Assembly (NCBI GenBank): GCA_018992685.1
Contig: JACVGT010000034.1
Coordinates: 1 to 64,000, forward strand
DNA: 64,000 bases
Reading direction: 5' to 3'
From: Theionarchaea archaeon
GTDB taxonomy: Archaea > Methanobacteriota_B > Thermococci > Methanofastidiosales > SZ-28-30
In this document: positions 5,740 to 41,350 of the stretch, in pieces
How the letters are laid out: every line of letters starts with the position of its first letter
Position numbering within the stretch: position 1 is the first letter of the stretch
Program-made: the position numbers and the translations under genes
The notes under the pieces: model-generated
What the model saw: only the letters and a program-made list of their open reading frames with translations
Told to the model about the DNA's origin: nothing
Databases searched by the model: none

Positions 5740-7098
5740 ATGCCCACAGAAATGGTAGTCAACAATCTCAGCGAGAAGGGAGCCGATTACTGCGATATCA
5801 GGAAAGAGAAATGGCAGGAGACATTCATAACACTGAAGGACGGGACGCTGGAAACAGTCATTCAGGGAGAAGAAAGGGGTGCCATGGTCAGGGTCCTGTG
5901 GAAAAATGGTTGGGGATATGCTGGAACTTCTGAATTCGAAACTCTTGCCCGCACAGCTGATAGAGCTCTATCTATGGCAAAAGCCCTTAATACATGTAGA
6001 GAAGGAGAGACAGGACTGTCAGAAGTTGAAATATATGACCAGGAGATAAACATACCTATGAAGGAGAATATTTCTGATATTGATTTAGAAGAAAGAATTT
6101 CTTTTCTAAAAGACCTTGAAGACAGGGTTAATGAACCTTTTGTCACATCAATAGAATTGGGATATAGAGATTCCATTATAAAAAAGGAGATTGTCACCAG
6201 TGATGGAAGTCGTGTACGCATGGAAATCCCGAAGGTATTTGTATACATGGCACTGCTCGGCAAGGGTGATTCAATTCAGCACGTGCTGGAGACTGCTGGA
6301 AGTACAGGGGGATTTGAAGTGGCACGCCACATGTATCATAAGACAGATTCGGCTTTGCAAAGGCTGAACCACCTGTTGAAGGCAAAATCCTCACCCAGCG
6401 GGGTAATGCCACTTCTCATTGATCCAATCCTTACAGGATTATTTATTCACGAAGCCTTCGGTCATGCGACTGAAGGAGATATAGTAACCAGCGGGGGCAG
6501 CTGCCTTGAAGGGAAACTGGGGCAAAAGGTAGCTTCGGAACAGGTGATAATTCGAGATGACCCGACTCTCGACGGTTATGGGAGGTTTCCCTTTGATGAT
6601 GAGGGCGTAAAAGCCAGAAACCGAACGCTTGTGAAGAATGGGGTCCTGGTCAGCTACATTGTAGACCGAGAGAACGGATGGAAACTGGGTCTTGAATCCA
6701 ATGGGGGTGCCAGGGCTGAAGATTTCAGAGTCAGGCCTTTGGTGAGAATGAGTAACATGGTAATGGAACCCGGGGACAAGACATTTGAGGAACTTGTGGA
6801 GGATGTAGATAGAGGGATATATGCTCAATCTGTCAAAGGGGGACAGGCGAATCCAGCAAAGGGGACATTCCAGTTTACTGCACAAGTGGCTCACCTCATC
6901 GAGCACGGTGAAATAACCCATCCTCTTTTGAATGTCAGTTTCAGTGGTTCTACATTGAATTCGTTGGAGAATATTAGAGGAATAGGCAAGGACTTCGACC
7001 TGAATGCAAGCCTTTGTAGGAAGCCGCAGACAGTCACAGTTTCAGGTGGGGGACCGCATGTCCTGATTGATGCAGTCACTGTGGGGGGCAGATCATGA
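5740..7098 (+). CDS. tldD: TldD-family metalloprotease subunit
   Basis: 452 aa, full length for TldD. The zinc motif HEAFGH is at residues 237-242, followed by ATEGD as in TldD. The C-terminal block GTFQFTAQVAHLIEHGEITH and the final GGGPHVLIDAVTVGG are also typical. TldD/TldE heterodimers degrade unfolded or flexible peptides and, in microcin B17 and related systems, remove the leader of modified peptides. The tldE partner overlaps by 4 nt (ATGA). The RiPP precursor gene begins 0.8 kb after this pair, so a role in its maturation is plausible. A second TldD/TldE pair lies at 54-57 kb. Confidence 0.93.
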   Translation: MPTEMVVNNLSEKGADYCDIRKEKWQETFITLKDGTLETVIQGEERGAMVRVLWKNGWGYAGTSEFETLARTADRALSMAKALNTCREGETGLSEVEIYDQEINIPMKENISDIDLEERISFLKDLEDRVNEPFVTSIELGYRDSIIKKEIVTSDGSRVRMEIPKVFVYMALLGKGDSIQHVLETAGSTGGFEVARHMYHKTDSALQRLNHLLKAKSSPSGVMPLLIDPILTGLFIHEAFGHATEGDIVTSGGSCLEGKLGQKVASEQVIIRDDPTLDGYGRFPFDDEGVKARNRTLVKNGVLVSYIVDRENGWKLGLESNGGARAEDFRVRPLVRMSNMVMEPGDKTFEELVEDVDRGIYAQSVKGGQANPAKGTFQFTAQVAHLIEHGEITHPLLNVSFSGSTLNSLENIRGIGKDFDLNASLCRKPQTVTVSGGGPHVLIDAVTVGGRS

Positions 7099-8435
7099 AT
7101 TCGGGGATCACAGAGTCTGTCAAACACGCTCTGGAGTGTATACAGAATGCAGGGCACGAAGGAGATGTCTTTGGTGTAAGAAAGAGTACGACTCGCTACA
7201 CCATTATGAAGGGAAACATTGCAGACAGTTCCGACTATGAAGACATGGGACTGGGAATACGAGTCCTGAACAACAGGAGGTCGGGATTTGGGTACTGCAT
7301 CCCGGGAGATGAGGAAAAGGGTGTGAGGGGAGCTTTACAGTCGTCAAGGTTTTCCCCCGAGGTTGAGATGTCACTGCCCACAGAAAAAAAGAGCCATGAA
7401 GTGAAAAAATTCGATAAGAAGATGGAAGAGGGATTTGGTGACGGGAGAGGAGTAGAATTCGTTCAAACGATAATAGATGGTGTCTTATCGCTCAAGAAGG
7501 ACATAACCCCTGCCTCGGGAGAAGTGACTGCAGTCACTGGAGCACGAATTGTGGAGAATACACAGGGTGTATTCCTGGAAGAAGCTTCCACATTTATCTA
7601 TTGCCAGGTAGAAGCAGTTATTCCCAGGGAAACAGGTTCGCTGAAGGCAATGGGAATCGAAAGTTCGCGGAGATTTGACATAGATTTTCATCAGTTGGGT
7701 GTTGAGACAGCCGAGAAAGTGGATTCCATGAGGGAACACTCTCCACGTATGACGAGTGACCTGCCTGTCGTCATGTCTCCTGATGCATTTGCCCAGCTGC
7801 TGGGATATGCATTCCTTCCTGCATTCTATGGTGAGAATGTCAGGAGTGGCAGATCTCCCTACCGGGGAAGACTGGGGGAAGAGATCATTCTCGACCCTCT
7901 CACTATTATCGATAACCCCTGCCAAGACTGGGGTCTGGGAAGCGGTGGATTTGATGATGAAGGTGTTCAGAGTTCTGAAGTTCCCATTCTCCAGGAAGGC
8001 GTCATAACAAGGTTCTTGTATGACCTGAAGGAGGGTGCAAGGAGTGGTGCTGGGAGCACGGCGAACGGAGTGAGAAGGACCTTCAAGACTGCACCCGGAA
8101 CGGCCCACCGGAACGTGTCTGTGAGAGGAGGACACCACTGCACAGACATAGCTCATGGGGACGGGATCTACGTCGATACGATTCTGGGAGTGGGTGCCAG
8201 TAATCCCATGAATGGACATTTCAGCGTGGCAGCCGAGCCTGCATGGCTCCTGGAGAAAGGGGAAAAGAAAGGGAGGATAGATGGTATCATGATTTCTGGA
8301 CATTTTCCAGACATACTGAATCAGATGAACCTTGGAAATGACTACAAGAAAACGTATTTTGCCGTGGGTAGACACAGGGTTGTAATAGAGCTTCCTACTG
8401 TACGGCTGGAAACCATCTCAGTAACCCAGAGATAG
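7095..8435 (+). CDS. tldE: TldE/PmbA-family metalloprotease subunit
   Basis: 446 aa, overlapping the tldD stop by 4 nt. It has the family's domain arrangement without the HExxxH motif, as expected for the non-catalytic TldE partner. Recognisable blocks are DDEGVQSSEVPILQEGVITRF and the C-terminal SNPMNGHFSVAAEPAWL and DGIMISGHFPDILNQM, which close the chamber of the heterodimer. It needs TldD for activity. The gene runs convergently into the flavin reductase gene, 10 nt away. Confidence 0.92.
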   Translation: MNSGITESVKHALECIQNAGHEGDVFGVRKSTTRYTIMKGNIADSSDYEDMGLGIRVLNNRRSGFGYCIPGDEEKGVRGALQSSRFSPEVEMSLPTEKKSHEVKKFDKKMEEGFGDGRGVEFVQTIIDGVLSLKKDITPASGEVTAVTGARIVENTQGVFLEEASTFIYCQVEAVIPRETGSLKAMGIESSRRFDIDFHQLGVETAEKVDSMREHSPRMTSDLPVVMSPDAFAQLLGYAFLPAFYGENVRSGRSPYRGRLGEEIILDPLTIIDNPCQDWGLGSGGFDDEGVQSSEVPILQEGVITRFLYDLKEGARSGAGSTANGVRRTFKTAPGTAHRNVSVRGGHHCTDIAHGDGIYVDTILGVGASNPMNGHFSVAAEPAWLLEKGEKKGRIDGIMISGHFPDILNQMNLGNDYKKTYFAVGRHRVVIELPTVRLETISVTQR

Positions 8436-9125: not shown

Positions 9126-9213
9126 TGTTTCGAAAGTGGTAGCCATACCTTTCCCATAGAAAACCTTAAATACTTTCCGAAAGAAAACAAGAGTATACGC
9201 AAAGAGGAGGTGA
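9126..9213 (+). promoter_or_regulatory. Promoter and Shine-Dalgarno of the RiPP precursor gene
   Basis: TATA box ccttaaatac at 9164-9173 and an unusually complete Shine-Dalgarno gaggaggtga at 9204-9213, 4 nt before the ATG. The TATA box is flanked by an imperfect inverted repeat (ttgtttcgaaagt at 9126-9138 and actttccgaaagaaaacaa at about 9172-9190), a possible operator. The strong ribosome site fits a highly produced precursor. Confidence 0.6.
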
Positions 9214-9217
9214 CACC

Positions 9218-9310
9218 ATGAAGTACGTAGAACCTGAGGTATTTGAGTTTGCAGAGGAGAGCATAACCGACAAATGCCTCGCCATGTGGGCTACTTTTAC
9301 ACCTACTTAA
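9218..9310 (+). CDS. Candidate RiPP precursor peptide, 30 aa
   Basis: Short frame from ATG at 9218 to TAA at 9310. Residues 1-18 are MKYVEPEVFEFAEESITD, which looks like a leader: acidic, with a Y-x-x-P motif near the N-terminus like that bound by PqqD-type recognition domains in lasso precursors. Residues 19-30 are KCLAMWATFTPT, a candidate core with one Lys, one Cys, one Trp, several Thr and a C-terminal Thr. It has its own promoter, a very strong Shine-Dalgarno and a terminator, and is followed by a PqqD-fused radical SAM/SPASM gene. I infer that it is the substrate of the enzymes encoded at 9.4-18.4 kb. Cleavage and modification sites are not known. Confidence 0.8.
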   Translation: MKYVEPEVFEFAEESITDKCLAMWATFTPT

Positions 9311-9315
9311 GTAGG
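9302..9315 (+). repeat. Palindrome/stem-loop over the stop codon of the precursor gene
   Basis: CCTACTTAAGTAGG is a perfect 14-bp palindrome containing the TAA stop. In RNA it can form a 5-bp stem (CCUAC/GUAGG) with a UUAA loop. It lies about 27 nt before a T-tract and may protect the 3' end of a short precursor mRNA. Confidence 0.5.
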
Positions 9316-9341
9316 AATGACACCCAGCCAAAAAGGACTTA

Positions 9342-9359
9342 TTTTCTTCTTTTTTTTTT
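9342..9359 (+). terminator. T-rich terminator between precursor and radical SAM gene
   Basis: ttttcttcttttttttt ends 21 nt before the next gene's first ATG. Partial read-through would give abundant precursor mRNA and less enzyme mRNA, a common arrangement in RiPP clusters. Confidence 0.65.
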
Positions 9360-9386
9360 GAAAAGCGCAAGCTGGAGCTGATGACT

Positions 9387-10670
9387 ATGCAGGATCTAGT
9401 TATAAGGAAAAAAAAGGGACGCAGTCTTGTGATAAACCCATGTAATTCAAGATGGGCCTTATTCGGAGGAGTTGCCACCGATATTCTGGACTTACTGGCT
9501 GAAGGACGTGACCAGGAGTACATAGTCTCTGCATTGCTTCGCAAGTATGAAACCACGGGAAATGTCATAGAACGGGATATCAAATGGGTAGAGGAAAAGC
9601 TGCATCTCAGAGGTCTCCTGGGCACTCAAAGCAGAACTGGAAATTCTCATTCCGTCAATAGTCTCCTCATTGAGACCACTCCGCGCTGTAACCTTTCATG
9701 TACATATTGTTATATTGAGCATCGTACAGACAGCACTCCCCTGACGGTCAAAGAGCAAGCATCTGTCATTGACCAGTTTATAGAGATGGGAGGAACCTCC
9801 CTGGCATTCAGTGGAGGAGAACCTCTTCTCTGCCCCTTTCTCTTTGATAGTGCTGAGTACGCTTCCCAGACTACCCTGGAGACAGTCAAGGTTATTACCA
9901 ATGGTACATTGTGGACAGAAAAGGAGGCCTCAAGAGCAGCAGATCTGAACCTCTTCGTCACGATTAGCCTGGATAGCCTCAAAAAGGAGGTTCATGAAAC
10001 CCTCCGTGGAAAAGGTCACGGAAGGGTTATGGAAACCATAGAGATGCTGCTGGACCATGGAATGGGAGGAAAGATGACAATATCCACCACTCCGACTCGG
10101 TTGAACCTGGCTGAAATTCCTGCTGTCATGGACTACTGCATTGAACAGGGTGTGGGAACTTTTGAGTGCCCTGCGTTTGTGAAGCGAGGGAGGGGGAAAA
10201 GAGAGGGTCTTCAGCTAGCTCCTGGCGAAGAAGATGCCCAGCAGCTAATTCACTCTCTCTTGGAATATCACAGGAACCACAACCTGGTCATTGAATCGTA
10301 TTACATTTCCTGCCTCAAAGCCCTGGCGTCCAACAGAGGTGGTGCAGCCCAATGTCCTATAGGGGAATCCATGAGAGTGTCACCTGCAGGAGACGTGTAT
10401 CCCTGTGTGTTTGGGACTGACTTCAGGCTGGGCAATGTAAGAGAGCAGCCTCTTGCAGAGATCCTTGCTGATTCAGAACCCCTGGCCAGGTTGAAAGCAT
10501 TCGAAGTTGATGATGTACAGGAATGCACAGACTGTGTGTTCAAGTATGTGTGTTCTGGAGGGTGCAGAGCAGTCGCCTATGATACGTATGGGACATTGTA
10601 CTCTCAATCTGCTTTCTGTTCTCTCCATAAGGACATGTTCTGGGAAATCTTGTGGAGCCTGGTGGAGTAA
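9387..10670 (+). CDS. Radical SAM/SPASM peptide-modifying enzyme with PqqD-like N-terminus
   Basis: 427 aa from ATG 9387 (ggag 9 nt upstream; ATG 9381 is the alternative). Residues 1-80 (GGVATDILDLLAEGRDQEYI, then a helix and LRGLLG) resemble a PqqD-type leader-binding domain. The [4Fe-4S] motif CNLSCTYC is at 101-108 and the GGEP motif follows about 45 residues later. The C-terminal SPASM part has CPIGESMRVSPAGDVYPC and CTDCVFKYVCSGGC, which bind auxiliary clusters. Such enzymes install thioether or C-C crosslinks in peptides. It follows the precursor gene directly, so it is the prime candidate for core modification. Confidence 0.92.
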   Translation: MQDLVIRKKKGRSLVINPCNSRWALFGGVATDILDLLAEGRDQEYIVSALLRKYETTGNVIERDIKWVEEKLHLRGLLGTQSRTGNSHSVNSLLIETTPRCNLSCTYCYIEHRTDSTPLTVKEQASVIDQFIEMGGTSLAFSGGEPLLCPFLFDSAEYASQTTLETVKVITNGTLWTEKEASRAADLNLFVTISLDSLKKEVHETLRGKGHGRVMETIEMLLDHGMGGKMTISTTPTRLNLAEIPAVMDYCIEQGVGTFECPAFVKRGRGKREGLQLAPGEEDAQQLIHSLLEYHRNHNLVIESYYISCLKALASNRGGAAQCPIGESMRVSPAGDVYPCVFGTDFRLGNVREQPLAEILADSEPLARLKAFEVDDVQECTDCVFKYVCSGGCRAVAYDTYGTLYSQSAFCSLHKDMFWEILWSLVE

Positions 10671-10733
10671 TCTTCACAGAGCACTTTGAAGGAGCGTACC
10701 ACACTCACTTTTCTGGAGTCATTGATGTCAGTG

Positions 10734-12161
10734 CTACACGAGGTTGAACTCTTGGAACATTCTGTGCACGGAGGGGAAGAGCAAACTCCAGGTTTCTTGA
10801 TACTGGAGGAGAGAATGAGGTGAGATGTTCTGGTACAACTGGTACAGGTTCCCAAAAAGACGTGCAGATGACGGGTCCCTTTCTGCAAGAAGCGTCACCA
10901 TATCGGAAGGTGAAAGAGGCAAAAGATTCTTCAGGAGAAGGTACTTTCCGAGACAGCGGCCAAACAGCGAGTACTGGTAGCTTCGCATGAGCGCCAGCTT
11001 TTTATTGGGGTTCAGGTACTCGAATCCAACGAGGGGAGAGGTGAAATGATAGGGGAAAAAATCGTTTTGAGCTTGAGTTTTCAGGGCTTCTGGCTGGGGA
11101 GCAGGCAAGCGATCCAGAAGGGAGCCATCCCCGAAAGCTACAGAACACGTTTCTCTCACAGTTTTAAGTTCCCAGGGCCAGACAGTGCAGTACCCTGCTA
11201 GGTGTTCTTCACAGATGAACTTGGCGTAGGCTCGCTGTTCAAAGGCAGCAAAGAAGTGTGAAGCAAGGCTGCAGAGGGTGTCCTTCAGTGCAGATTCTTG
11301 GGAGGGATCAATAATGAAAAAGACAATTCGCACATCATCGTACGGTAAGGTTGTATGAAGAACACTCTGGACTCCGGTGAGCAGGTGGGTATGGCTTTGA
11401 CAAAAGTCAGAGAAAGCTGAAGGGGGGTTGCGTCTTCTCACGGGCTCAGAAGGGCATGTACTATGTCCAAAGAGACTTTTCCACGCAGAGCACCAGAAGA
11501 GGAGCAGATCGACATAGAACTCCTGTGACTGCTCTCCACGATACTCATTGGAGGAGACCTCCCGTACTCTGTCCCCAACTCTGTCATCACTCATGGACCG
11601 ACCGAGCTCAGAAAGGAAAGAGGTAGGATTGTCATACGCTATCTTGCACACCTGGCGATTCACTTTTTGTGTTCCCTTGGGGGAACCGTGAATGAAGTGC
11701 GGTGCAAGGACACAGATGTTAGCTGCATCATCTCCATGAAATGCATGGGCAACCAGGAGCTTTTGAGCTGCTGTTTTCTCCGCAGAACTATCAGGAGAGG
11801 TCTCTCTCAGTTCCTCGCCGAAGAGTAATTGCCATTTTGACACATACCAGGGATGCATTCTGCAGAACTGATCAAAAGAAGCTCTTGGCAGACAGAAGGG
11901 GGGGTGTTCAACCAGTTTCTTGGCTGGAACTTCTCCCTGCAGACAACTGAGCTCTCGGTAGAGGTTGCCGATGCCCCTATAGAACGTGATATCTTGGAAA
12001 TTCTCTGTAACAAAATAAAAGTCAAGGTCACTAAACCCCTTCCTGAGAGAAGGAAGCGGCTTCTTGATATACACAGAGGTTACAGAGGGATTGGAGGAGA
12101 GCCAGTGAGAAAGGCTGGAGAGGACTTTTCCAGTGTCTTCCATATAATCACCCAACTCCAC
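10734..12161 (-). CDS. Nucleotidyltransferase-like protein of the RiPP locus (unknown function)
   Basis: 475 aa with a GTG start at 12161 (ATG at 12143 is an alternative). Near the N-terminus VTSVYIKKPLPSLRKGFSDL-DFYFV carries a G-x-S-D-L-D pattern like the metal-binding strand of the polymerase-beta nucleotidyltransferase fold. The remaining 400 residues have no motif I recognise; the middle is rich in Cys, His and Phe. It is the last gene of the minus-strand operon headed by pqqD, 36 nt after the B12-type radical SAM gene. With the PF14907-type protein at 17.2 kb the locus would hold two nucleotidyltransferase-like proteins. The assignment rests on one motif. Confidence 0.7.
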   Translation of the reverse strand: MELGDYMEDTGKVLSSLSHWLSSNPSVTSVYIKKPLPSLRKGFSDLDFYFVTENFQDITFYRGIGNLYRELSCLQGEVPAKKLVEHPPFCLPRASFDQFCRMHPWYVSKWQLLFGEELRETSPDSSAEKTAAQKLLVAHAFHGDDAANICVLAPHFIHGSPKGTQKVNRQVCKIAYDNPTSFLSELGRSMSDDRVGDRVREVSSNEYRGEQSQEFYVDLLLFWCSAWKSLFGHSTCPSEPVRRRNPPSAFSDFCQSHTHLLTGVQSVLHTTLPYDDVRIVFFIIDPSQESALKDTLCSLASHFFAAFEQRAYAKFICEEHLAGYCTVWPWELKTVRETCSVAFGDGSLLDRLPAPQPEALKTQAQNDFFPYHFTSPLVGFEYLNPNKKLALMRSYQYSLFGRCLGKYLLLKNLLPLSPSDMVTLLAERDPSSARLFGNLYQLYQNISPHSLLQYQETWSLLFPSVHRMFQEFNLV

Positions 12162-12197
12162 AGAGTAGTGAAGAAAAAAGCATAGGTCGTTGCGTGT

Positions 12198-13742
12198 TCA
12201 TGATGGGAGCTCCCTCCTGTATGAGTCATAGAGTCTGTCATACACAGATTCACAAGAGTCACTCCCCCGGAACTTTTGAATTTCTTCAGTAATGTAGTGC
12301 GAGAGACCTCCCTGGTCTCTGGCCTGTACATGTGGTGTCCCTGCAAGCTTCCCAAGGTTCTGAATGAGGAGTGAACAGACAACGTACCTGAACTGCATGG
12401 TATCGCCGTGCACCTGGGCAGATCTCCACGAATACGTCCCCGCTTTTGAGATATCTGTTCCATCATACAGTGACTCATACGTCATATCATAAATCTGTGG
12501 AGTCTGAAAGATGTCCGAGGCTGATGCAAGGACAAATCGATTGACCATTGCTGTGTCAAAGAGGTCCCTGTTTTCATACAGCCATCGCAAGCTGTTGATA
12601 AAGTCCTGTTTCGTTTCTGTGGGAAAGGCACAAACGACATTAATTCGAAGAGGGATGCCAACTCTCACTGTGTTCTTCAGGACTGTGGTAACCTCCTCCA
12701 GAGTTGTTCTCTTGTTCATCTCGTTGAGAATACGAGGGACAGGAGATTCGAGTCCATACCGGAGTTCAAAACATCCGGCTTTTTTCATCAATTCAAGCAT
12801 GTCCACAGACAGCTTCTCCGGACGTGCATTGCCATACCACCGTATGTCGAGGCCCCTTTCAATGAGCAGTCTGCACAGGTTTTTCAACAGGGGGATATTA
12901 CCATTCAACAGACTATCGTTGAACCGGAACGTCGTGATTCCATACTCTCTATCTCGCTCAATTTCCTTCACCACTGACTCGGGCCTCCTGTACCTGATTT
13001 TCCTTTCCCAGAAGATTCTCTCATTGCAGAAGACGCAGTTTCCAACACATCCCCTGCTCAACGAGACTGGTAACATTCGTTCTGTGTATCGATCCAGTTG
13101 AAAGTCACTGAAATCAGGAAATGGCAGCGTGTTGAGATCAGCTATGGCAGGACGAGGTGAGTTTTTCATCATCGTTCCATTTCGAAAGAGGACGGTACCC
13201 GTGGGAGGATTGAGAAGCTCCCCCTGCTCCAGGGTTTTCACAACCTCCAGGAGGGTTACTTCCCCTTCTCCGCGGACAGCCAGGTCGACAACACCTGTGG
13301 AAGAAACCACCTTCATGACCTCGTCCAGACTACACTCTGGTCCTCCGAATATTGTCATGAGACGAGGATTTTCAGCCTTCAACAGCTGTGCAAGAAAAAG
13401 AGAGGGTGACAGGTTAGAATGATCTACCGTGAATCCCACCACGTCAGGTGCCTCGGCCAAGAGACACTCCTTCCACAGACGGAACAGATCCAGTAGCTTC
13501 TCTCTTTTCTTTGATGCTGCTGGTGATGTCATATCCAGTCTCCTATTCAAACAGAAAGATCTTTCTATCATCTCCAGTAGAAATGCGTCCTTGAGAAATG
13601 GCTCACTTGTGGACAAGTCCAGAACTGTCACGTCCCTTTCGTTTTCCCGCAAGAATGAAGAGAGAGACGCCAGTGATAAAGGCGGGAAAAGAGACCTCTT
13701 CAAAGAAGCATTAACCAGACACACCTTGACATCCTGCGTCAT
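12198..13742 (-). CDS. Radical SAM enzyme with B12-binding-like N-terminal domain
   Basis: 514 aa. Residues 5-200 look like a cobalamin-binding Rossmann domain of the B12-radical SAM class (VCLVNASLKRSLFPPLSLAS at the start, FGGPECSLDEV in the middle, VRGEGEVTLLEV later), but I see no DxHxxG motif for cobalt ligation. The radical SAM motif CVGNCVFC is at 232-239, followed by FRFNDSLLNGN and FELRYGLESP, typical of this class. Such enzymes methylate unactivated carbons, rearrange rings or do other radical chemistry. The start overlaps the upstream transglutaminase-like gene by 4 nt, so they are co-expressed. The target is probably the precursor peptide. Confidence 0.88.
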   Translation of the reverse strand: MTQDVKVCLVNASLKRSLFPPLSLASLSSFLRENERDVTVLDLSTSEPFLKDAFLLEMIERSFCLNRRLDMTSPAASKKREKLLDLFRLWKECLLAEAPDVVGFTVDHSNLSPSLFLAQLLKAENPRLMTIFGGPECSLDEVMKVVSSTGVVDLAVRGEGEVTLLEVVKTLEQGELLNPPTGTVLFRNGTMMKNSPRPAIADLNTLPFPDFSDFQLDRYTERMLPVSLSRGCVGNCVFCNERIFWERKIRYRRPESVVKEIERDREYGITTFRFNDSLLNGNIPLLKNLCRLLIERGLDIRWYGNARPEKLSVDMLELMKKAGCFELRYGLESPVPRILNEMNKRTTLEEVTTVLKNTVRVGIPLRINVVCAFPTETKQDFINSLRWLYENRDLFDTAMVNRFVLASASDIFQTPQIYDMTYESLYDGTDISKAGTYSWRSAQVHGDTMQFRYVVCSLLIQNLGKLAGTPHVQARDQGGLSHYITEEIQKFRGSDSCESVYDRLYDSYRRELPS

Positions 13743-14359
13743 ACTAACAACCTTCCCCGGATCTTTCTACTCCCTCCTGAAGCAAAATCATCATTTTCCA
13801 GATAGTACAGCTCTTTTGTGCCACCTACCATGGTTTCATACTGCTCTTCAGATCCGACATAGTGAAGCAAAGGGTCACAGATGAAACATGGCGTACCCTT
13901 AACTTTGACCCACGCATGAAGTCGAGGAAGATATTCGAATTTTTCCGCAGAAATCCTCTTCCATTTAACAAATCCCACAACGACTTTAGATTCTTTACCA
14001 ATGTGATTTAATAATGCTGAAAGGAGCACTGACATGTGCTTACAGTCTCCATATCGCAGCGCATTCACCTCTTCAGGAGAAAACCATCCTCGAAGCGGGA
14101 GTCTTTTCACCCAGGTTTCAACATAGTTGAACAGGATTCTGATCTTGTCCTCATCTGATTTTGCAGACCCTGTGAGGCCTTCTGCAACACCATCAATTGA
14201 GAGGTGCTTTTTCTGCAGGAAGAAATGAGCACTCCACGTGGACACACGGGAAAGAACTGGTAAGACAATTCTGTAGTAGAGGTAGTAGGGCTTTCCTCCA
14301 GACGTGGACCGGACAAAGAAAAAGCCATCGACACGGGATAAAACGTCCAGCGCATTCAT
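13739..14359 (-). CDS. Transglutaminase-fold cysteine protease-like protein (candidate leader peptidase)
   Basis: 206 aa. The catalytic triad of the transglutaminase core is visible: Cys106 in LRYGDCKHMSVLLSALL, His148 in LPRLHAWVKV and Asp162 in FICDPLLHYVG. In lasso-peptide clusters a protein of this fold (B2) cleaves the leader after PqqD (B1) binds it. This gene sits two genes after pqqD in one operon, with 4 nt to the radical SAM gene and a 4-nt overlap with the next, so leader removal is its most likely job. The N-terminal 60 residues are variable and without recognisable motif. Confidence 0.82.
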   Translation of the reverse strand: MNALDVLSRVDGFFFVRSTSGGKPYYLYYRIVLPVLSRVSTWSAHFFLQKKHLSIDGVAEGLTGSAKSDEDKIRILFNYVETWVKRLPLRGWFSPEEVNALRYGDCKHMSVLLSALLNHIGKESKVVVGFVKWKRISAEKFEYLPRLHAWVKVKGTPCFICDPLLHYVGSEEQYETMVGGTKELYYLENDDFASGGSRKIRGRLLV

Positions 14360-14363
14360 TGAA

Positions 14364-15419
14364 TCATACCTCGAATCCTACTCTTTCTTTGAATTCTTTG
14401 AAGCAGATGGGATCTCTTGCATCAGTTCTCTCGTACAGCGAGAAGCACACGCCGCGACATCCTCCACGACAATACGAGAGATACTCACATTCGGTGCATT
14501 CAGAGGGGAGCTGACATGCAAGGTCCCGGACTCTCTGGGCAGCTGTACTGGCCCATATGGCTTTCAGAGAAGAGTGCCGCACATTCCCAAGAACCACAGG
14601 GAAGTACCCACAGGGCAGAACATTGCCGTTAGCCTGCATGTAACCAGTAAACCCTCCAGCATCGCAGTAATGACTCTTTACTTCTTCCCCTTCCCGTTCC
14701 TTTTTAATGGCAAGCCACGTGCTGACTACTGGGTTATCGGACAGTATTGTTATCGCATTCTTTGCCTCCTCATAGATCTGTTCAAACCCCTGCAGGAACT
14801 CCTGGTACATAGAACATGTGAGAGAGAGTCCATCAGCACCGGCAGCCCTCCCCACGGGGGCTATTCTCATAATGTTGATCAACCTTACCCCGTGCTCAAT
14901 ACACAGGGCAATAACTCCCGGTACCTCCAGGTAGTTCTCCCTGTGCAGAACGTACCCCACTGACGTTGTGACATGGTGTTCGTGTAACAGGCCGAGCGCC
15001 TGCACTGCCTTTTCAAAGGAACCTTCTGCTCTTCTGAATTGTTCATGTGTTCTGGGCGTTGAACCATCAAGGCTGACTGTAACCAGTCCAAGGTTGCACC
15101 TTCTCAGTCTTTCTGCGATGTCTTCATCAATGAAGGAGCCGTTGGTGCTCATGGTAACAGAAATGGTGTTGTCAGACAGTCTCTCTAGAATATCAAAGAT
15201 GTCCTTCCGCATCAAAGGCTCTCCACCAGCAATGAACAGGTCAAAGATACCAATTCTCTTGAATTCATCCAGCAGCTCGAGAGCTTCCTGATGGTTCAAT
15301 TCATCTGCACGCCTCTTACCGGCATCAGCATAACAGTGCTTGCATCTGAAATTGCATTCTGAAGTGACTTCCCAGAAGAGACGGAGAGGAAGCTTGACAA
15401 AATCGCGGAGCTCTTTCAT
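14364..15419 (-). CDS. Radical SAM/SPASM enzyme, PqqE-like
   Basis: 351 aa. The N-terminus LRLFWEVTSECNFRCKHCY places the cluster cysteines at 22, 26 and 29, followed by FIAGGEPLMRKDIFDIL. The C-terminal SPASM region has CDAGGFTGYMQANGNVLPC, then CTECEYLSYCRGGC and a last Cys in DPICFKEF. The gene starts exactly at the stop codon of the separate pqqD gene, an arrangement in which PqqD presents the precursor to the enzyme. It differs from the 9.4-kb enzyme by lacking a fused recognition domain; the two may act in sequence on the same peptide or on different residues. Confidence 0.92.
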   Translation of the reverse strand: MKELRDFVKLPLRLFWEVTSECNFRCKHCYADAGKRRADELNHQEALELLDEFKRIGIFDLFIAGGEPLMRKDIFDILERLSDNTISVTMSTNGSFIDEDIAERLRRCNLGLVTVSLDGSTPRTHEQFRRAEGSFEKAVQALGLLHEHHVTTSVGYVLHRENYLEVPGVIALCIEHGVRLINIMRIAPVGRAAGADGLSLTCSMYQEFLQGFEQIYEEAKNAITILSDNPVVSTWLAIKKEREGEEVKSHYCDAGGFTGYMQANGNVLPCGYFPVVLGNVRHSSLKAIWASTAAQRVRDLACQLPSECTECEYLSYCRGGCRGVCFSLYERTDARDPICFKEFKERVGFEV

Positions 15420-15692
15420 CTACACCACCGTCACCAGATTCTTGCTCTTCAGGTTCTGGATGACTTTATGTACATCTTTGAGAGCCTTGTCTCTGGTGAC
15501 GTTCTCATATTCCTCTACTACTTCATCGGCTATTTCTTCAGCAGTTTTTTCTCCATCGGCGAGTTTCCAGATGAAAGCTGCCGTTTGATTCAGGACAATA
15601 ATCCTGTTGTCAGTGGCAGTATAAAGCACAAGATTTTCATCCTCACTTCGCCATTTCACCTCAGCAATACGCTTCGGGATTACCTCCGACAT
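15420..15692 (-). CDS. PqqD-family leader-peptide-binding protein
   Basis: 90 aa. RIIVLNQTAAFIWKLADGEK followed by TAEEIADEVVEEY is the core PqqD pattern (a hydrophobic strand, LNxTA, W, DG, then a helix). PqqD proteins bind precursor leaders and hand them to radical SAM or ATP-dependent enzymes. I chose ATG 15692; a GTG at 15713 is possible but the TATA box at 15722-15731 leaves little room. It is the first gene of a five-gene operon (pqqD, SPASM, transglutaminase-like, B12-type radical SAM, nucleotidyltransferase-like). Confidence 0.92.
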   Translation of the reverse strand: MSEVIPKRIAEVKWRSEDENLVLYTATDNRIIVLNQTAAFIWKLADGEKTAEEIADEVVEEYENVTRDKALKDVHKVIQNLKSKNLVTVV

Positions 15693-15721
15693 GATATCAC
15701 CAGCATATTTCACTTCTTTAT

Positions 15722-15731
15722 CCTTATAAAG
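15722..15731 (-). promoter_or_regulatory. TATA box of the pqqD operon
   Basis: ctttataagg on the minus strand, preceded by gaaagaaat as a possible B-recognition element, about 30-35 nt before ATG 15692. Confidence 0.6.
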
Positions 15732-15908
15732 ATTTCTTTCGAATCCTATATCGTACAGGTTACTGTCTAAAACCGTGATTTGGAGACATCAATTAACTAG
15801 GAACTCTTACCCACGGAAAACTAGCAGTGTCGGCACAAGGAATTGGAAAAGATATGAGAGGAGGGTTGCGGGTCATGGTGCTCATGGCAAAGGAGATGAA
15901 AAGAGAGA

Positions 15909-16196
15909 GTGAGAGTATCCATGTCATGGCCTGAAAGAATAAGAGACACGATACCTGCGACGGCTTTCTGTATACTCCATCCTGAGGCAATTGGATTCAA
16001 TGAAATGACGCAGGAGTGCAGAAAGACTTTTAAGGTAGTAGGAATTGGGAGACATGGTGAATCTATGGAAAAGGTGTGTCTTCTTGAGGAGCTTTCCAAG
16101 GGACAGATACATGTCAGTGGCCATGTACTCCTAGGACTCTCCAGAATGAAAGAGAACTGCTCCATATGGGCGATACCTGCCCTGAAGAGGGGGTGA
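15909..16196 (+). CDS. 95-aa protein of unknown function, first gene of the kinase operon
   Basis: GTG start at 15909 with a strong Shine-Dalgarno (aaaggagatga) 9 nt upstream; ATG 15921 is an alternative. The stop overlaps the presumed GTG start of the HPr-kinase-like gene (GTGA), which suggests translational coupling and a real gene. Part of it (FKVVGIGRHGESMEKVCLLE) faintly recalls the G-x-S-M core of S24/S26 peptidases, but the following spacing does not fit and no catalytic Lys/Ser dyad is convincing. No family is assigned. Confidence 0.5.
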   Translation: MRVSMSWPERIRDTIPATAFCILHPEAIGFNEMTQECRKTFKVVGIGRHGESMEKVCLLEELSKGQIHVSGHVLLGLSRMKENCSIWAIPALKRG

Positions 16197-17191
16197 AGGT
16201 GGTGGAAGAGACACCTGGAATGACAAGGCTGAATGTCGGGCTCAAGACTGCTCACCTTGGTCCACGAGAATGTGAAAAGCTCCAAAATCTTGATCAAAGA
16301 GTACACACACTGGATATTTACGGAGTTACGATTAATGTCTGCACGAATTCAACCCTCTATTCTGAAGAACTTTCAGGAACCTATGAAAGGTTGATTACCA
16401 GTACATCACAGGACCCCGATGCAGTCATCCGTATTCTCACAGTTCCAGAGGACTTACCTGTTATTCACCAGCTGGGCTATGAGGAGGAGAAAAATGTCCT
16501 CGAATATTCCCATGATGACTCGAGGCTGTATATCATTCCTGAATCGACAGAGCCTGGTAACTTCTTCCTGTCTGTGATGCAGGTTGCTCTTTTCCGCATT
16601 TTGCTGGATCATAACATGTTCTGTGCCCATGCATCTGCTGCATCTCTTGGGAATCATGGGGTCATCTTTTCAGGTGAGTCAAACTCTGGTAAGACCACCC
16701 TGGTCATGGCGTTGCTGGCAGAGGGACACAAGTACTTTTCGGACGACTTTGTTCTCATACATACTGATACCATGATGTTACTGCCCCTGTGTTCTCGATT
16801 GAAGCCACGGGGAAAGACAATCTCGATGTTTCCTGAAATGGAGACAGAAGATGCGAAAATATACATGGAAACAGAAACCCAGGTGAGAAAAATCCTTTCT
16901 GTTGGGCGCACCTTTCCTCATCTTCTGAGCCCCCCCTGTCCCCTGACCCACATCTTTTTTCCAACATTCAATCCAGAAGGGGAGACAGTACTCCAGCCTG
17001 TGTCCCCCTCTGATGGAGTGATAGCCTTTCTGAAATCCTGGATGCTGTACAGGACAGAGCCCACCAGAGTATTTCCCCTGATTTCAAAGATAGTGCGGGC
17101 CTGCAAGACCTATTCACTGGAATATCGAGATGCACGGGAAGCTGTCAAGGACTTGGTCAGAGTCATCTTGGGTGAGGACAGTGTCTCCTGA
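16193..17191 (+). CDS. HPr kinase-like protein (RiPP-associated kinase)
   Basis: 332 aa from GTG 16193 (4-nt overlap with the previous stop); ATG 16220 is possible. A Walker A motif GESNSGKTT is at about residues 161-169, preceded by HASAASLGNHGVIFS and followed by YFSDDFVLIHTD, the arrangement of the HPr kinase/phosphorylase C-terminal domain. There is no HPr or PTS gene nearby. In paeninodin-type lasso clusters a kinase of this family phosphorylates the C-terminal residue of the precursor. The precursor here ends in Thr, so a similar reaction is plausible. It is followed, as in those clusters, by a nucleotidyltransferase gene. Confidence 0.85.
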   Translation: MKVVEETPGMTRLNVGLKTAHLGPRECEKLQNLDQRVHTLDIYGVTINVCTNSTLYSEELSGTYERLITSTSQDPDAVIRILTVPEDLPVIHQLGYEEEKNVLEYSHDDSRLYIIPESTEPGNFFLSVMQVALFRILLDHNMFCAHASAASLGNHGVIFSGESNSGKTTLVMALLAEGHKYFSDDFVLIHTDTMMLLPLCSRLKPRGKTISMFPEMETEDAKIYMETETQVRKILSVGRTFPHLLSPPCPLTHIFFPTFNPEGETVLQPVSPSDGVIAFLKSWMLYRTEPTRVFPLISKIVRACKTYSLEYRDAREAVKDLVRVILGEDSVS

Positions 17192-18413
17192 CCTGTATGA
17201 CGTACCGGCTGCAGTCTCAAAAATAGCTCTCTCAGAAGAGGAGCAGGAAGTCATATCGAGGAAGGTGACCTCGTGGAGTACAAGAGCGTGGAATTCTTTA
17301 TTCAAGAGAGCCCAGGAGGAAGTGGTAATTCCTCAGGTCTACAAGAATCTCAGTGATCTGGAGATAAGGCCCCCCATGTGGAATGATGTCAAAGGACTGT
17401 ACTACAACGCCTGGGTCCACAAGCAGAATCTGCTGTCAGAAGCTAAAAAAGTGGGAGACGTACTTTCTCACCAGGGAATTTCATTTCTCTTTCTGAAAGG
17501 GCTGGCTGTCGACAGCCAGTACCAGGGAAGCTGGAGAGCTATGGCAGATATAGATGTACTCGTGAAAGACTTTGAACCTGCACAAAAATCTCTCTCAGGT
17601 ATCGGGTATATTCTCGACGACATGTGGACTGCTGAACAGGGAAGATTCGGGGTGGGGAACTTATACTGCAGAGAACGCAAGACGAAGATTGATCTTCATT
17701 TCGGCGAATATCCTGTACACTCATTGGGAAGTTTTCATCTCCCTGTATGGGAGAGGTGTAGACCAGGAGAACCAGTCACGTCTCTTGAGGACACTCTGCT
17801 GGTGCTTGCAGCTCATGTGTTCAACCACGGGTTTTATCTCATGCGAGACATCAACGATGTATACGTCATTCTCCAGAATGAGCTAGACTGGCAGTATGTA
17901 ACACAAAATGCCAAGGCCTACCACCTGGAAAAGCCGTTATCCATGCTGCTGAAGGCCGCAGCCTCCGTGTATGGTGTCCATATAAACGACGTGTGTAAGA
18001 GCAGGTTTTCACTTCTCTATCAGTATGGCCGCAGAAGGCACACTTTTCAAGGACTGCTCCAGCTGCACCATCTCGTGGTTCTCTCCCACATGAAGAAACT
18101 GGCATCATACCCTGGGTACTGGTGCGCCTCACATCTCACTACCGCACACCACGTTATTGATCCCCCCTGGATAGGAAGGGCTTCTCCCTCCTGGATCAAT
18201 CGGACAGACCGAAAGCGATTGGGTGACATGAGTAAAGAGGTATTTCATTCCATATTCGGTGGTAATACAGCTGCAGAGCAGGGCATGCACTTCATGTGTG
18301 AACAGGGTGGCGTCTATGTAGAAAAACGAGATCTTCAGGAGAAAGACCTGGAGCGAGCAAAAGGAATTATCAGGTCTTCTGCCCTGAAAGTTGATCGAGA
18401 CATATCAATCTGA
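17172..18413 (+). CDS. Nucleotidyltransferase family protein (PF14907-type)
   Basis: About 413 aa; the GTG at 17172 (or 17181) overlaps the end of the kinase-like gene. FLFLKGLAVDSQYQGSW then MADIDVLVKD is the hallmark of PF14907 nucleotidyltransferases (LKG...Y, R/M-x-D-x-D). Further on are KIDLHFGEYPVHSLGSF and LLVLAAHVFNHGFYLMRDIN, also family-like. In phosphorylated lasso-peptide clusters this family further modifies the C-terminal phosphate. The C-terminal 130 residues are not assigned. It ends a three-gene operon that converges on the ABC exporter genes. Confidence 0.85.
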   Translation: MRTVSPDLYDVPAAVSKIALSEEEQEVISRKVTSWSTRAWNSLFKRAQEEVVIPQVYKNLSDLEIRPPMWNDVKGLYYNAWVHKQNLLSEAKKVGDVLSHQGISFLFLKGLAVDSQYQGSWRAMADIDVLVKDFEPAQKSLSGIGYILDDMWTAEQGRFGVGNLYCRERKTKIDLHFGEYPVHSLGSFHLPVWERCRPGEPVTSLEDTLLVLAAHVFNHGFYLMRDINDVYVILQNELDWQYVTQNAKAYHLEKPLSMLLKAAASVYGVHINDVCKSRFSLLYQYGRRRHTFQGLLQLHHLVVLSHMKKLASYPGYWCASHLTTAHHVIDPPWIGRASPSWINRTDRKRLGDMSKEVFHSIFGGNTAAEQGMHFMCEQGGVYVEKRDLQEKDLERAKGIIRSSALKVDRDISI

Positions 18414-18504
18414 GACACAAGGAACTGGGTCCTCAGGAGGACGTAGTAGATAGCGATTCTTCCTTCATCCAAACACACATGCCCCTTTTAGATTGCACCC
18501 AGGT

Positions 18505-19311
18505 TTAAAAGAAAACAAGTTTTCCACTCTTTTTTGCCAAATGTTCAAAGTAACCCAAGACGAACGAACCGAGACAGAATAGCAGTGCGCCCACTATGAG
18601 CTCACGAGCCAGCAGCATGGGTATGGGTGAGAACTCCTCAATCACGGCGAGGCGAGCAGCTTCTATTCCGTGAGTCAGAGGAATTGCTTTTGAGATATAT
18701 TGAAGAGATTGTGGCAGCATACCAACGGGAAACGTCACTCCACAGAAGAACATCGTAGCAGACAGCATCATGCTGACGATGGGATGAGGCTGTCTGTAAT
18801 ACAGAGCCAGACCAGAAAAAAGCAATCCAAATCCCATCATACTGATAACTGATAGAAATGCGATTACGATCATATACAGGGAGCCCAGAACCGACATTCT
18901 GAGGCCAAACAGGGTGACACCATACAGCAACACGATGAAAATCCCGAATATTCCATCTCCTATGTGGATCGCAGATTTTGCAATATTGAGCAGAGGTCTA
19001 TTCACCGGTGTAGAGAAGAGTAGTTCCAGTGTTCCTTCCCTGCGCTCATTGAAAACAAAGAACATGGGCCCCATCAATGTATTGAACGTAGAAACATACA
19101 GCGCATTTCCCACCACCACGAAATTGATGTAGGACTGTGCATCCTGGCCTGTGAGGGCGGCCCCATAGTCAGATATGAGCACAAATGTCAGGACAAGAAA
19201 GAAGGGAACACCGAGCTTCACAACAACAAAATCTGGTGGGTTGATCCAGGTGAAAAGTGCCCTGTAGGTGAAGATTCCTGTTCTGAACACAAATTTCAAT
19301 GTTCTCATCAT
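18505..19311 (-). CDS. ABC-2 type exporter permease subunit
   Basis: 268 aa with six hydrophobic segments. The motif FNERREGTLELLFSTPVNRP after the second TM is the signature of ABC-2 permeases. It is 9 nt downstream of a second, different permease and in one operon with an ATPase, so the exporter is probably a heterodimer of permeases with ATPase homodimers. Being placed next to the RiPP modification genes suggests export of, or immunity to, the mature peptide. Confidence 0.88.
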   Translation of the reverse strand: MMRTLKFVFRTGIFTYRALFTWINPPDFVVVKLGVPFFLVLTFVLISDYGAALTGQDAQSYINFVVVGNALYVSTFNTLMGPMFFVFNERREGTLELLFSTPVNRPLLNIAKSAIHIGDGIFGIFIVLLYGVTLFGLRMSVLGSLYMIVIAFLSVISMMGFGLLFSGLALYYRQPHPIVSMMLSATMFFCGVTFPVGMLPQSLQYISKAIPLTHGIEAARLAVIEEFSPIPMLLARELIVGALLFCLGSFVLGYFEHLAKKSGKLVFF

Positions 19312-19320
19312 TTTGATCCC

Positions 19321-20115
19321 TCAATAGACTGACAGTTTTCCATCTCTGACTGCTATTTTCCTGATGTACCTGTAGAGGACCACGGCAACCACGAAATACA
19401 CTGCTGTCAGGAATGTAACCATAGCTGCGTCCATCCAGAAGACTGAAGATTCCCAGGCGTTTTGTGACACTGATACCCTTACTGCGTCCAGAGCCCACGT
19501 GAGAGAAAGAGAATAGCTGATAGGCCTCACCCAGAAAGGCAAGACAGATATGGGGAACAACAACCCGCCGAGGACATAGATCATGTACTGCATTAAATTC
19601 ATGAAATACGCAACCCTTCTGGTCAGCATATAGGCTGATGCTAAAACAAGCCCGAATACAGACAGTGTCACGATTGTCATGACGAGAGATACAAGAAACA
19701 GTCCGGGGGATTCAATGTGTATGGGAAGTCGTAGGACGAATTTCCCCACAGCCAGAACGGCTGCAACCGAGACCAGGCCAGTTGCAGCAGAAGAAAGGAT
19801 CTTTCCGAAAGAGAATGTGAAGAGAGAAACAGGTGTCAAGAACATCAACTCCAACGTTCCCTGCATCCGTTCTTGAAAAATAGACTTTCCTCCAAAGGAC
19901 AGCACCATGGCCCAGACTCCAATGAATCCACTGCCAAAGACAACATATGTTGCATAGTCCTGGGAGCTTGTACCTACAAATCTGTAGAGCATTATTACCA
20001 CAAAGGCAACAAACACGGGCTCTACAAACGCATGTATCCCCCACAGGATGTCTGCCCGTTCGTGTTGCAGTTGAGAAATGAACCCACGTCTCAGTGAAAT
20101 CCAGTATGGGTTCAT
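19321..20115 (-). CDS. ABC-2 type exporter permease subunit
   Basis: 264 aa, six TM segments, with IFQERMQGTLELMFLTPVSL as the ABC-2 motif. It starts 1 nt after the ATPase stop, so translation is coupled. It is a distant relative of the permease that follows it. See that entry for the role. Confidence 0.88.
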   Translation of the reverse strand: MNPYWISLRRGFISQLQHERADILWGIHAFVEPVFVAFVVIMLYRFVGTSSQDYATYVVFGSGFIGVWAMVLSFGGKSIFQERMQGTLELMFLTPVSLFTFSFGKILSSAATGLVSVAAVLAVGKFVLRLPIHIESPGLFLVSLVMTIVTLSVFGLVLASAYMLTRRVAYFMNLMQYMIYVLGGLLFPISVLPFWVRPISYSLSLTWALDAVRVSVSQNAWESSVFWMDAAMVTFLTAVYFVVAVVLYRYIRKIAVRDGKLSVY

Positions 20116-20116
20116 T

Positions 20117-21112
20117 CTATGACCTCGTCAGTTCCAAGAATACATCTTCGAGCGTGGGGGACCCCTGTTCCACAGAGATGATTTCATGCGTTTTTTCCAG
20201 CAAAGAAACAATATCCTCCACACACACTTTGTCCTGATCAAGCCCAACCTTGAGTTTAGTTGTATTATCCTGTATTCCTGATTCTACATAGTGTACGCCC
20301 TTTCTACTGGTTAATACATGCTCAACCTGAGGAACAACTCCCCTCAGCAGGATGGTGACGGGTGTGACTGTGCCGAATTGCCGTTTTAGGTTCTCGGGGG
20401 TGTCATTGGCTATCAACGTACCCCTGTGAATGATGGCAACACGATCACAGAGCTCGTCTGCTTCAAACATGTAGTGGGTTGTAAGAAAGACAGTCTTTTT
20501 TTCTCGTGTGCACAAATTCCTGATAGTCTTTCGCAGCTCATGGGCAATGGTGGGGTCGAGTCCAAGTGTCGGTTCATCCAAGAAGAGTATGTCAGGATCA
20601 TGGACCAGACCTCGTGCCAGGTGGAGACGTTGCTTCATTCCTTTTGAATATGTTTCCACCTTGCTGTCCGCTCTGTCAGCAATCCCCACGAGTTCCAGGA
20701 GCATGTCAATTCTGTCCATCCGCTCAGAAGAGTCGAGTCCGTAGAGTTCGGCAAATATACGCATATTGTCTCTCCCACTCAGTCTCCAGTAAAGTCCTCG
20801 TTCCCCCCCGAATACCACACTGATCCGTTTCCTCACTTCGTTTGGAGCCTTCAGAATATCATTACCAAGGATGGTAGCGGTTCCTTTGGTAGGCAATAGG
20901 AGTGTGGACAGCATCTTGATCGTAGTAGTCTTTCCCGCCCCATTTGGCCCCAAGAATCCAAAAAGCTCGCCACGATGTACCGAAATATTCAGGTTGTCGA
21001 CAGCTACAATGATTCTGCTTCCTTCACCTCTAATTCTTTTGAAAAAGGAGGGGTATTCTATATATTCTCTTGAAATATCGTAAGTCTTGATTACTGATTC
21101 CATGAATCTCAT
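20117..21112 (-). CDS. ABC-2 exporter ATPase subunit
   Basis: 331 aa. Walker A GPNGAGKTTT, signature YSKGMKQRLHLARGL, Walker B DILFLDEPTLGLDP and the H-loop TTHYMFEADELCD are all intact. The C-terminal 90 residues (TPVTILLRGVVPQVEHVLTS) form the small domain seen in DrrA/NatA-like ATPases. The start at 21112 lies 26 nt from the TATA box agataaatat (21131-21140), so the mRNA is likely leaderless. It energises the two permeases encoded downstream. Confidence 0.93.
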   Translation of the reverse strand: MRFMESVIKTYDISREYIEYPSFFKRIRGEGSRIIVAVDNLNISVHRGELFGFLGPNGAGKTTTIKMLSTLLLPTKGTATILGNDILKAPNEVRKRISVVFGGERGLYWRLSGRDNMRIFAELYGLDSSERMDRIDMLLELVGIADRADSKVETYSKGMKQRLHLARGLVHDPDILFLDEPTLGLDPTIAHELRKTIRNLCTREKKTVFLTTHYMFEADELCDRVAIIHRGTLIANDTPENLKRQFGTVTPVTILLRGVVPQVEHVLTSRKGVHYVESGIQDNTTKLKVGLDQDKVCVEDIVSLLEKTHEIISVEQGSPTLEDVFLELTRS

Positions 21113-21130
21113 CTCCGATGGCATGCTACG

Positions 21131-21140
21131 AGATAAATAT
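21131..21140 (-). promoter_or_regulatory. TATA box of the ABC exporter operon
   Basis: atatttatct on the minus strand, centred about 24-26 nt from ATG 21112; a second TATA-like tttaaatatt lies further upstream at about 21157-21166. Confidence 0.55.
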
Positions 21141-21517
21141 GTTTTCCTTCGACAAGAATATTTAAATTTTTCGGTGGTTATGGTCCTGGATTTCCTGAAT
21201 TGACAAAGAAATCCCGGAACGCCCATTGAAAAGAAAGAAGCTTTGTGGAGAGAGGTAGAACCCACTGCTCTAGGAGAGCTCAGGGGGCTGTATACGTGTA
21301 GTTGATAGTCCATGAGATGTGTTACAAGAAGTTAGTGTGAAGAATACAGTGCCGTTTTTAATCGTTCTGCAAAATAAAACTCCAATTATGTCTTGGCTTT
21401 CGGGATACGGGAATACTTGAACTCAGAAGCGAAAACCTTTAAATATTCTCGATCAACTCTCCCGCGGTGATCACATAAGACCATCAGTTTTCGCTCTTGA
21501 ACAGTGGACGCACAGAA
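21141..21517. other. Intergenic region with divergent promoters
   Basis: Between the exporter operon (minus) and the PAS gene (plus). I see a second TATA-like box for the minus strand and, on the plus strand, a TATA box acctttaaatatt at 21436-21448 with ggtgatcac 20 nt later. No gene or repeat is evident in the rest. Confidence 0.4.
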
Positions 21518-37570: not shown

Positions 37571-37630
37571 TAATGGGATGAGTAGAAGGTGGGACAGGAT
37601 AGGGTGTGTACAAGGAAGGTGGCATCGGTA

Positions 37631-37640
37631 TGTTTTAATG
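37631..37640 (+). promoter_or_regulatory. TATA box of the AF1577-type radical SAM gene
   Basis: tgttttaatg centred 26 nt before ATG 37662, which decides the start as leaderless. Confidence 0.5.
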
Positions 37641-37661
37641 TACAGAAGAGCTGGAGTCTTC

Positions 37662-39157: not shown

Positions 39158-39389
39158 TACTTCTCTTTGGCTTCTGTAGTTAAAAACCTGTCAGTCAATC
39201 AGGTGGGAACGCGGCATTCGATTTACGGTGGATAATTTGTAACTCAGGAAATTCGAAGAAGACAGGTTTCATGGGTTCAGAAAGCTGTCTCAGTCTTGAA
39301 CGACTCTTTGCCTTGCATTCTTAGAAAGAGTTGATATCTCTCCTCGACCGAACCGCCTGTCGCTCGACCGTGACATCCATTGGTTGGGG

Positions 39390-40115: not shown

Positions 40116-40201
40116 GTCTGATGAAGAGCATACGAGAATATCAATCTTTTTGTGAATTCAACTCAGATCAGGGTGCTGGGACAGTGTCATACTGCACTCT
40201 T

Positions 40202-41326: not shown

Positions 41327-41350
41327 GTAATCACGTTTCCTCAGGCAGCC

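Follow-up and report, generated by a model that had tools for sequence, protein, structure and literature searches.

A putative radical-SAM peptide-modification cluster around a 30-residue candidate precursor in a Theionarchaea genome

The 64-kb stretch of DNA analysed here (the window) lies at the start of contig C17 in the genome of a Theionarchaea archaeon (G000; 3.03 Mb, 91% complete). An Sm-like protein, with archaeal Sm proteins as its closest matches, supports the archaeal assignment. Between positions 5740 and 21313, it carries a set of genes spanning about 15 kb that probably, if by no means certainly, forms a single cluster for a ribosomally synthesised and post-translationally modified peptide (RiPP), in which radical S-adenosylmethionine (SAM) enzymes would act on a 30-residue precursor to give one modified peptide. 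Gene identities are derived from Pfam and NCBIfam family models, each with its own bit-score cut-off. A second species of the same genus (G020, 88% complete) serves for comparison. The features, numbered by position in the window, are as follows.

5740-7098, plus strand: TldD metallopeptidase, candidate leader-trimming protease (PF19289, 225.9 bits; HEAFGH at 237)
7095-8435, plus strand: TldE/PmbA partner subunit (PF19289, 177.9 bits; without HExxxH)
9160-9217, plus strand: promoter and ribosome-binding site of the short gene, read directly as GAAAACCTTAAATAC (TATA-like at 9166-9173) and GAGGAGGTGACACC
9218-9310, plus strand: candidate precursor peptide MKYVEPEVFEFAEESITDKCLAMWATFTPT, 30 aa, with leader motif YxxPxV
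9341-9362, plus strand: T-rich tract with T10, terminator-like, 3' of the short gene
9381-10670, plus strand: fusion of a PqqD-type RiPP recognition element (RRE) with a radical SAM-SPASM enzyme (PF04055 80.5, SPASM 40.4, PqqD 22.6 bits)
10734-12161, minus strand: 475-aa protein with a GFSDLD motif, nucleotidyltransferase-like by that motif alone
12198-13742, minus strand: cobalamin-binding radical SAM enzyme, candidate C-methyltransferase (PF02310 and PF04055)
13739-14359, minus strand: transglutaminase-like cysteine protease candidate (PF01841, 34.5 bits, cut-off 23; C106/H148/D162)
14364-15419, minus strand: radical SAM/SPASM enzyme (family models, motif)
15420-15713, minus strand: discrete PqqD-type protein, predicted to bind the leader as an RRE (PF05402, 65.4 bits)
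16166-17191, plus strand: HprK-like kinase (TIGR04352, 63.9 bits, cut-off 200; H155, P-loop GESNSGKT, SDD)
17130-18413, plus strand: NTP_transf_5 nucleotidyltransferase (PF14907, 103.9 bits; start codon uncertain, overlapping the preceding gene)
18505-19311, minus strand: ABC-2 permease of an ATP-binding cassette (ABC) transporter (PF01061)
19321-20115, minus strand: ABC-2 permease (PF01061)
20117-21313, minus strand: ABC transporter ATPase, DrrA type (PF00005; probable start nearer 21112)

A sequence-only reading of this DNA had listed most of these parts, and the family models bear it out for the two SPASM enzymes (one fused to PqqD, one beside it), the cobalamin-type radical SAM enzyme, the transglutaminase-fold protease candidate, the HPr-kinase-like protein and the ABC-2 exporter. 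Of its two nucleotidyltransferase-like proteins, the one on the plus strand stands, while the 475-aa protein has its GFSDLD motif as the sole ground for that label. The TldD/TldE pair was missing from its list. On the right flank, the sensor gene at 21669 has no match in G020 at 1e-50, so that synteny does not place the cluster borders. A possible open reading frame (ORF) of 93-95 aa at 15909-16196 has no family match; it extends into the 5' end of the HprK-like gene and could be an additional small gene of the cluster or due to chance.

The short gene at 9218-9310 is central to the interpretation. Directly upstream of its start lies a 9-nt match to the Shine–Dalgarno (SD) consensus (GAGGAGGTGA); a TATA-like element (TTAAATAC) is found about 50 nt upstream, and T10 follows downstream. 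The gene for the fused radical SAM enzyme starts 71 nt further on, placing the short ORF immediately beside a maturase. Dinucleotide shuffling of the 287-nt gap produced a short ORF with an SD match this long in 0.07% of cases, and one combining an SD match of at least 7 nt with an aromatic-xxP N terminus in 0.03%. No other candidate precursor in the interval from 5 to 22 kb has an SD match of at least 7 nt. In G000 and G020, the density of such short ORFs in intergenic DNA is 1.27 per kb near radical SAM or PqqD genes and 0.21 per kb far from them (about 6-fold; p 8e-10), and a TATA-like box precedes 22 of 32 candidate precursors, compared with 10% of random intergenic 45-mers (p 5e-15). Five such ORFs are common to both species; their synonymous and non-synonymous divergences (pS 0.52, pN 0.12; pN/pS 0.23; p 2e-15) indicate that short ORFs with strong SD matches are real genes in this genus. 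The 30-residue ORF, which the sequence-only reading had already described with its Y-x-x-P leader, is very probably a real gene as judged by these signals.

No orthologue of the ORF is available, and no orthologous locus was found in G020, GTDB-220 or IMG/VR; this would fit a different reading, namely that the ORF is not the substrate, because it is a chance ORF or because the cluster is a decayed remnant whose precursor is lost. The SD match, TATA-like box, T tract and position speak against this, as do the catalytic motifs, which are intact wherever checked, and we regard this alternative as quite improbable. In locus L071, tblastn matched the precursor to a site inside a long ORF, and this match was rejected.

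Within the peptide, the leader motif YVEPEV (residues 3-8) fits the lasso-type YxxPxL pattern with V replacing L. Three YxxP precursors, including the one in the window, carry an x-D-K-x-hydrophobic element downstream of this motif (ITDKCL, TADKWL and SPDKMV); this element plausibly marks the leader–core boundary. The core holds one Cys (C20).

The enzymes themselves point to radical-SAM RiPP chemistry. CxxxCxxC is intact in all three radical SAM enzymes of the cluster, and it is accompanied by SPASM and RRE domains; that a RiPP-type locus exists in this archaeon, as had been claimed, is well supported. The fused PqqD domain scores 22.6 bits, just below its cut-off of 23.4, and is backed by its position and by an NCBIfam StsB match covering residues 4-404 (126.6 bits). 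In having a PqqD-radical SAM-SPASM fusion beside a short Cys-containing precursor, the locus resembles the RRE-fused sactipeptide and ranthipeptide maturases StsB, AlbA and SkfB; it differs in that the match lies far below the StsB cut-off of 625 and in its single core Cys. The nearest NCBIfam models of the cobalamin-binding enzyme are ApyD and rSAM_ocin_1. Catalytic residues are intact in both the protease (C106/H148/D162) and the HprK-like protein (H155, P-loop K, SDD).

Wider searches returned little. The 475-aa protein has no Pfam, NCBIfam or PDB sequence match, the protease has none in PDB or PLSDB, and the HprK-like protein has a weak PDB match to 3tqf. A phylum-wide search with the fused radical SAM enzyme gave matches of 29-30% identity, all in the sister genome; GTDB-220 gave two generic radical SAM matches and no orthologue, and neither this enzyme nor the cobalamin-binding one matched IMG/VR.

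TldD and TldE are distinguished by HExxxH, which is present in 5740-7098 (HEAFGH) and absent from its partner. TldD/E trims RiPP leaders in bacteria, for example in the case of microcin B17 (PMC10885120), and for this reason the pair is included here; it probably belongs to the cluster. Both G000 and G020 contain 16 TldD/E genes, or about eight pairs each. Four of the eight G000 pairs have G020 orthologues at 79-90% identity and two have matches at 43-61%; the pair in the window and that within RiPP locus L044 have best matches of at most 32%, without a close orthologue, in a comparison covering six of the eight G020 pairs (the other two lie on contig C99). Microcin B17 and klebsazolicin are likewise processed by TldD/E, the candidate leader protease here, although their TldD/E genes lie elsewhere in the genome rather than directly upstream of the precursor, and the window lacks their YcaO azoline chemistry. 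A second TldD/E site lies in the window at 54138-56796, and the expansion of the family is unusual in both genomes.

Whether the genes act together was formerly argued from position alone. Evidence independent of position now supports a link between the two halves of the locus: a correlation between PqqD and leader types, the gene layout in G020, and the recurrence of the exporter and of TldD/E near RiPP loci. As to the first, the nearest relatives of the free PqqD protein in the two genomes are the PqqD proteins of loci L037, L040/L051 and L048/L039. The L037 precursor begins MYKPPMMVDL, that of L040/L051 reads MYAKP[MR]LEEITVRITADKWLISLPA[LV]PY, and that of L048/L039 reads M[NS]DEKQPFEKPDIREIEVLMVSYES. 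These three Y/F-x-x-P loci thus occupy ranks 1-3 of 27 merged loci by closeness to the free PqqD (p 3e-4; p 0.004 when the labels are extended to two weaker FxxP peptides). Leader labels for L037, L040, L051 and L048 were fixed before the PqqD comparison; L039 was added later through its 96% identical peptide.

The second line concerns contig C24 of G020, where NTP_transf_5 and HprK-like genes are read in one direction and, divergently, a kinase and a YxxP precursor followed by PqqD and two SPASM genes in the other. The order and orientation of SPASM and PqqD on one side and HprK and NTP_transf_5 on the other match those in the window. Thirdly, the two closest paralogues of the exporter ATPase in the genome (46% and 49% identity) adjoin RiPP loci on contigs C7 and C3. 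In the sister cluster (L037), the HprK-like gene is separated from the YxxP precursor by a gene at 11791-12918 for a eukaryotic-type Ser/Thr protein kinase (PF00069, 159 bits).

Several points weigh against a single pathway. The genes form three transcription blocks on alternating strands, with two PqqD domains and two protease systems. This arrangement would suit two neighbouring systems: a small radical SAM RiPP made by the plus-strand TldD/E pair, 30-mer and PqqD-fused enzyme, and a minus-strand operon of PqqD, SPASM enzyme, protease and cobalamin-binding enzyme that acts with HprK and the nucleotidyltransferase on another substrate. It would also suit the distance of the fused PqqD from the PqqD proteins of YxxP type. 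However, no second precursor with an SD match of at least 7 nt occurs near the minus-strand operon, whose free PqqD is precisely the one with relatives that accompany YxxP leaders, and loci with multiple radical SAM enzymes and few precursors are common in both genomes (for example L045 and L050). Two separate systems are considered unlikely, albeit a serious alternative.

Other counterpoints concern the evidence itself. The leader labels came from short regular expressions, and the rank test is small (about 27 loci). The HprK-like proteins of the window and of G020 are too diverged for mutual detection by phmmer. G020 has neither the 9218 precursor nor orthologous enzymes nor the whole gene set; the evidence of selection is that from sister-locus precursors. 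The fused PqqD domain falls slightly short of its Pfam cut-off, TldD/E is widespread, its inclusion resting on position and the missing orthologue, and single-sequence AlphaFold models had a predicted local distance difference test (pLDDT) score of 37 for the 475-aa protein and 35 for the protease and were set aside.

The sequences themselves show the genes with their motifs, the expression signals of the short gene, the recurrence of parts at sister loci and the PqqD-leader link. If the cluster makes a single product, as is somewhat favoured here, the pathway that we infer, including its chemistry, order, cleavage site and product function, would run as follows. The short gene would be expressed through strong transcription and translation signals of its own. 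The N-terminal YxxPxV leader of its product would dock on both PqqD domains, that of the discrete protein and that of the fusion enzyme. The two SPASM enzymes would then introduce cross-links, as thioether or C–C bonds, into the C-terminal half, with likely sites around C20-W24, and the cobalamin-binding enzyme would C-methylate or otherwise alkylate the core. The HprK-like kinase may phosphorylate a hydroxyl, most simply that of the C-terminal Thr. To this phosphate, the NTP_transf_5 protein may attach a nucleotide- or sugar-type group. The transglutaminase-like protease would remove the leader near T17-K19, and/or TldD/E would shave it, and the ABC-2 pump would export the product. The product would most likely be a secreted antagonist or signal, as the locus is not common to the two species of the genus.

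The sequence-only reading, which knew of no described class with this set of genes, was too strong on this point, as related sets exist in SynChlorMet, HPr-rel-A and kinase/nucleotidyltransferase lasso clusters; what holds is that the window reaches none of their cut-offs. The SynChlorMet cassette (TIGR04248-TIGR04251, ScmC-ScmF) likewise combines a PqqD-type chaperone, two SPASM radical SAM enzymes and an HprK-like protein, the last by way of the match between the L037 protein and ScmC. The window adds a cobalamin-binding radical SAM enzyme, a transglutaminase-like protease, TldD/E and an ABC-2 exporter. Membership was ruled out by the scores (bits/cut-off: ScmD 37.9/100, ScmE 130.7/400, ScmF 105.8/400), and ScmC has no match in G000 at E<=0.01. 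The HPr-rel-A system (TIGR04352 kinase, TIGR04353 PqqD) shares the pairing of an HprK-related kinase with a PqqD protein; its cut-offs are not reached (kinase 63.9/200 bits), TIGR04353 is not matched by the PqqD of the window, and the window has three radical SAM enzymes.

These likenesses raise the possibility of a cassette of the SynChlorMet or HPr-rel-A type, with a small cofactor-like or intracellular product, as for pyrroloquinoline quinone or mycofactocin, instead of an exported bioactive peptide. The parts are of like kinds; ScmD is among the best NCBIfam matches of the window's PqqD, and the HprK-like and PqqD proteins of L037 match ScmC (22.3 bits) and TIGR04353 (25.5 bits), respectively. 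Every score is nevertheless far under the family cut-offs, the locus includes an ABC-2 exporter, and the sister species lacks the locus, which would not be expected of a core cofactor pathway. A product of this kind is rather improbable.

Also similar in composition are the clusters of lasso peptides tailored by a kinase and a nucleotidyltransferase (paeninodin, pseudomycoidin and BsfA). In these clusters, the kinase phosphorylates the precursor, and a nucleotidyltransferase homologue is required to decorate the phosphate (PMC9266682, PMC10368454). The YxxPx-hydrophobic leader, PqqD/RRE, transglutaminase-fold protease, HprK-like kinase, nucleotidyltransferase and ABC exporter all recur in the window, as does a Thr 14 residues past the leader Tyr. 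A lasso peptide cluster is nonetheless hardly credible and was ruled out: the cluster contains no asparagine-synthetase-like lasso cyclase and the window no SGGxDS motif, the core offers no Asp or Glu past residue 18 for ring closure, the protease scores 20.5 bits against PF13471 (cut-off 26), and three radical SAM enzymes are present.

By its sequence characteristics, the locus is thus best placed among radical-SAM RiPP loci, set off from the named related sets by missing their cut-offs. A bolder proposal, which is put forward tentatively and with more doubt than confidence, is that of a new RiPP class. In it, a lasso-like module of leader, RRE, protease, kinase and nucleotidyltransferase would be joined to radical SAM cross-linking and cobalamin-dependent methylation in place of a macrolactam synthetase, yielding a cross-linked peptide that is phosphorylated and either nucleotidylated or glycosylated, in a genus with a dozen or more such loci per genome. 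The findings suggest that the tailoring pair of kinase and nucleotidyltransferase, known from lasso peptides, can be carried over as a module into other pathways. Small, clean gene sets of this kind make leader-to-RRE pairing, radical SAM cross-linking and peptide phosphorylation in archaea directly testable.

More striking than the single locus is the apparent wealth of such loci in the genus. PqqD matches at E<=0.001 number 17 and 19 in its two genomes, whereas 113 further genomes of the phylum have 0-4 each. Counted by position, they make up about 11 and 15 distinct loci, the majority of which hold SPASM and/or cobalamin-binding radical SAM enzymes together with one to four short candidate precursors. 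About 30 such candidate genes occur in the two genomes, and purifying selection is clear for some of them. Among archaeal RiPPs, those characterised by experiment are to date mainly lanthipeptides of haloarchaea (PMC12144867), and archaeal radical SAM RiPPs have been predicted by antiSMASH (PMC12144867, PMC10105419). A survey of archaeal genomes found 1-14 predicted biosynthetic gene clusters of all kinds per genome (PMC10105419), as compared with roughly 11 and 15 PqqD loci alone in G000 and G020. No paper describing RiPPs in Theionarchaea was found in a literature search conducted mostly without subscription journals; the genus is apparently an undescribed and unusually rich store of modified-peptide loci in archaea.

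Among the other loci, L042 (11155-11637), L052 (7390-7862), L053, L054, L055 and L086 contain further precursor families, some conserved between species. These include a CMCC family (..EIDQCMCCAAAPIDNIGVVA) and another that starts ..NKKxW and ends in Cys/Gly-rich cores such as CGCGGGCC. L050 (5358-5724) and L074 (5864-7112) encode two and four tandem, near-identical peptides of 24-27 aa, MEPRVEDYLDATCVASTGG.., with variable C termini and a strong SD match for each. L039 and L048 combine four cobalamin-binding radical SAM enzymes and PqqD with a 25-aa peptide, MxDEKQPFEKPDIREIEVLMVSYES, that is 96% conserved between species. Within the window, a lone radical SAM gene is found at 37578-38759; at this place, the sister locus L054, which is syntenic with window positions 38792-41455 (66-80% identity), has a locus with PqqD, SPASM and cobalamin-binding radical SAM enzymes and a Cys-rich precursor. 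This may be a place where RiPP loci turn over.

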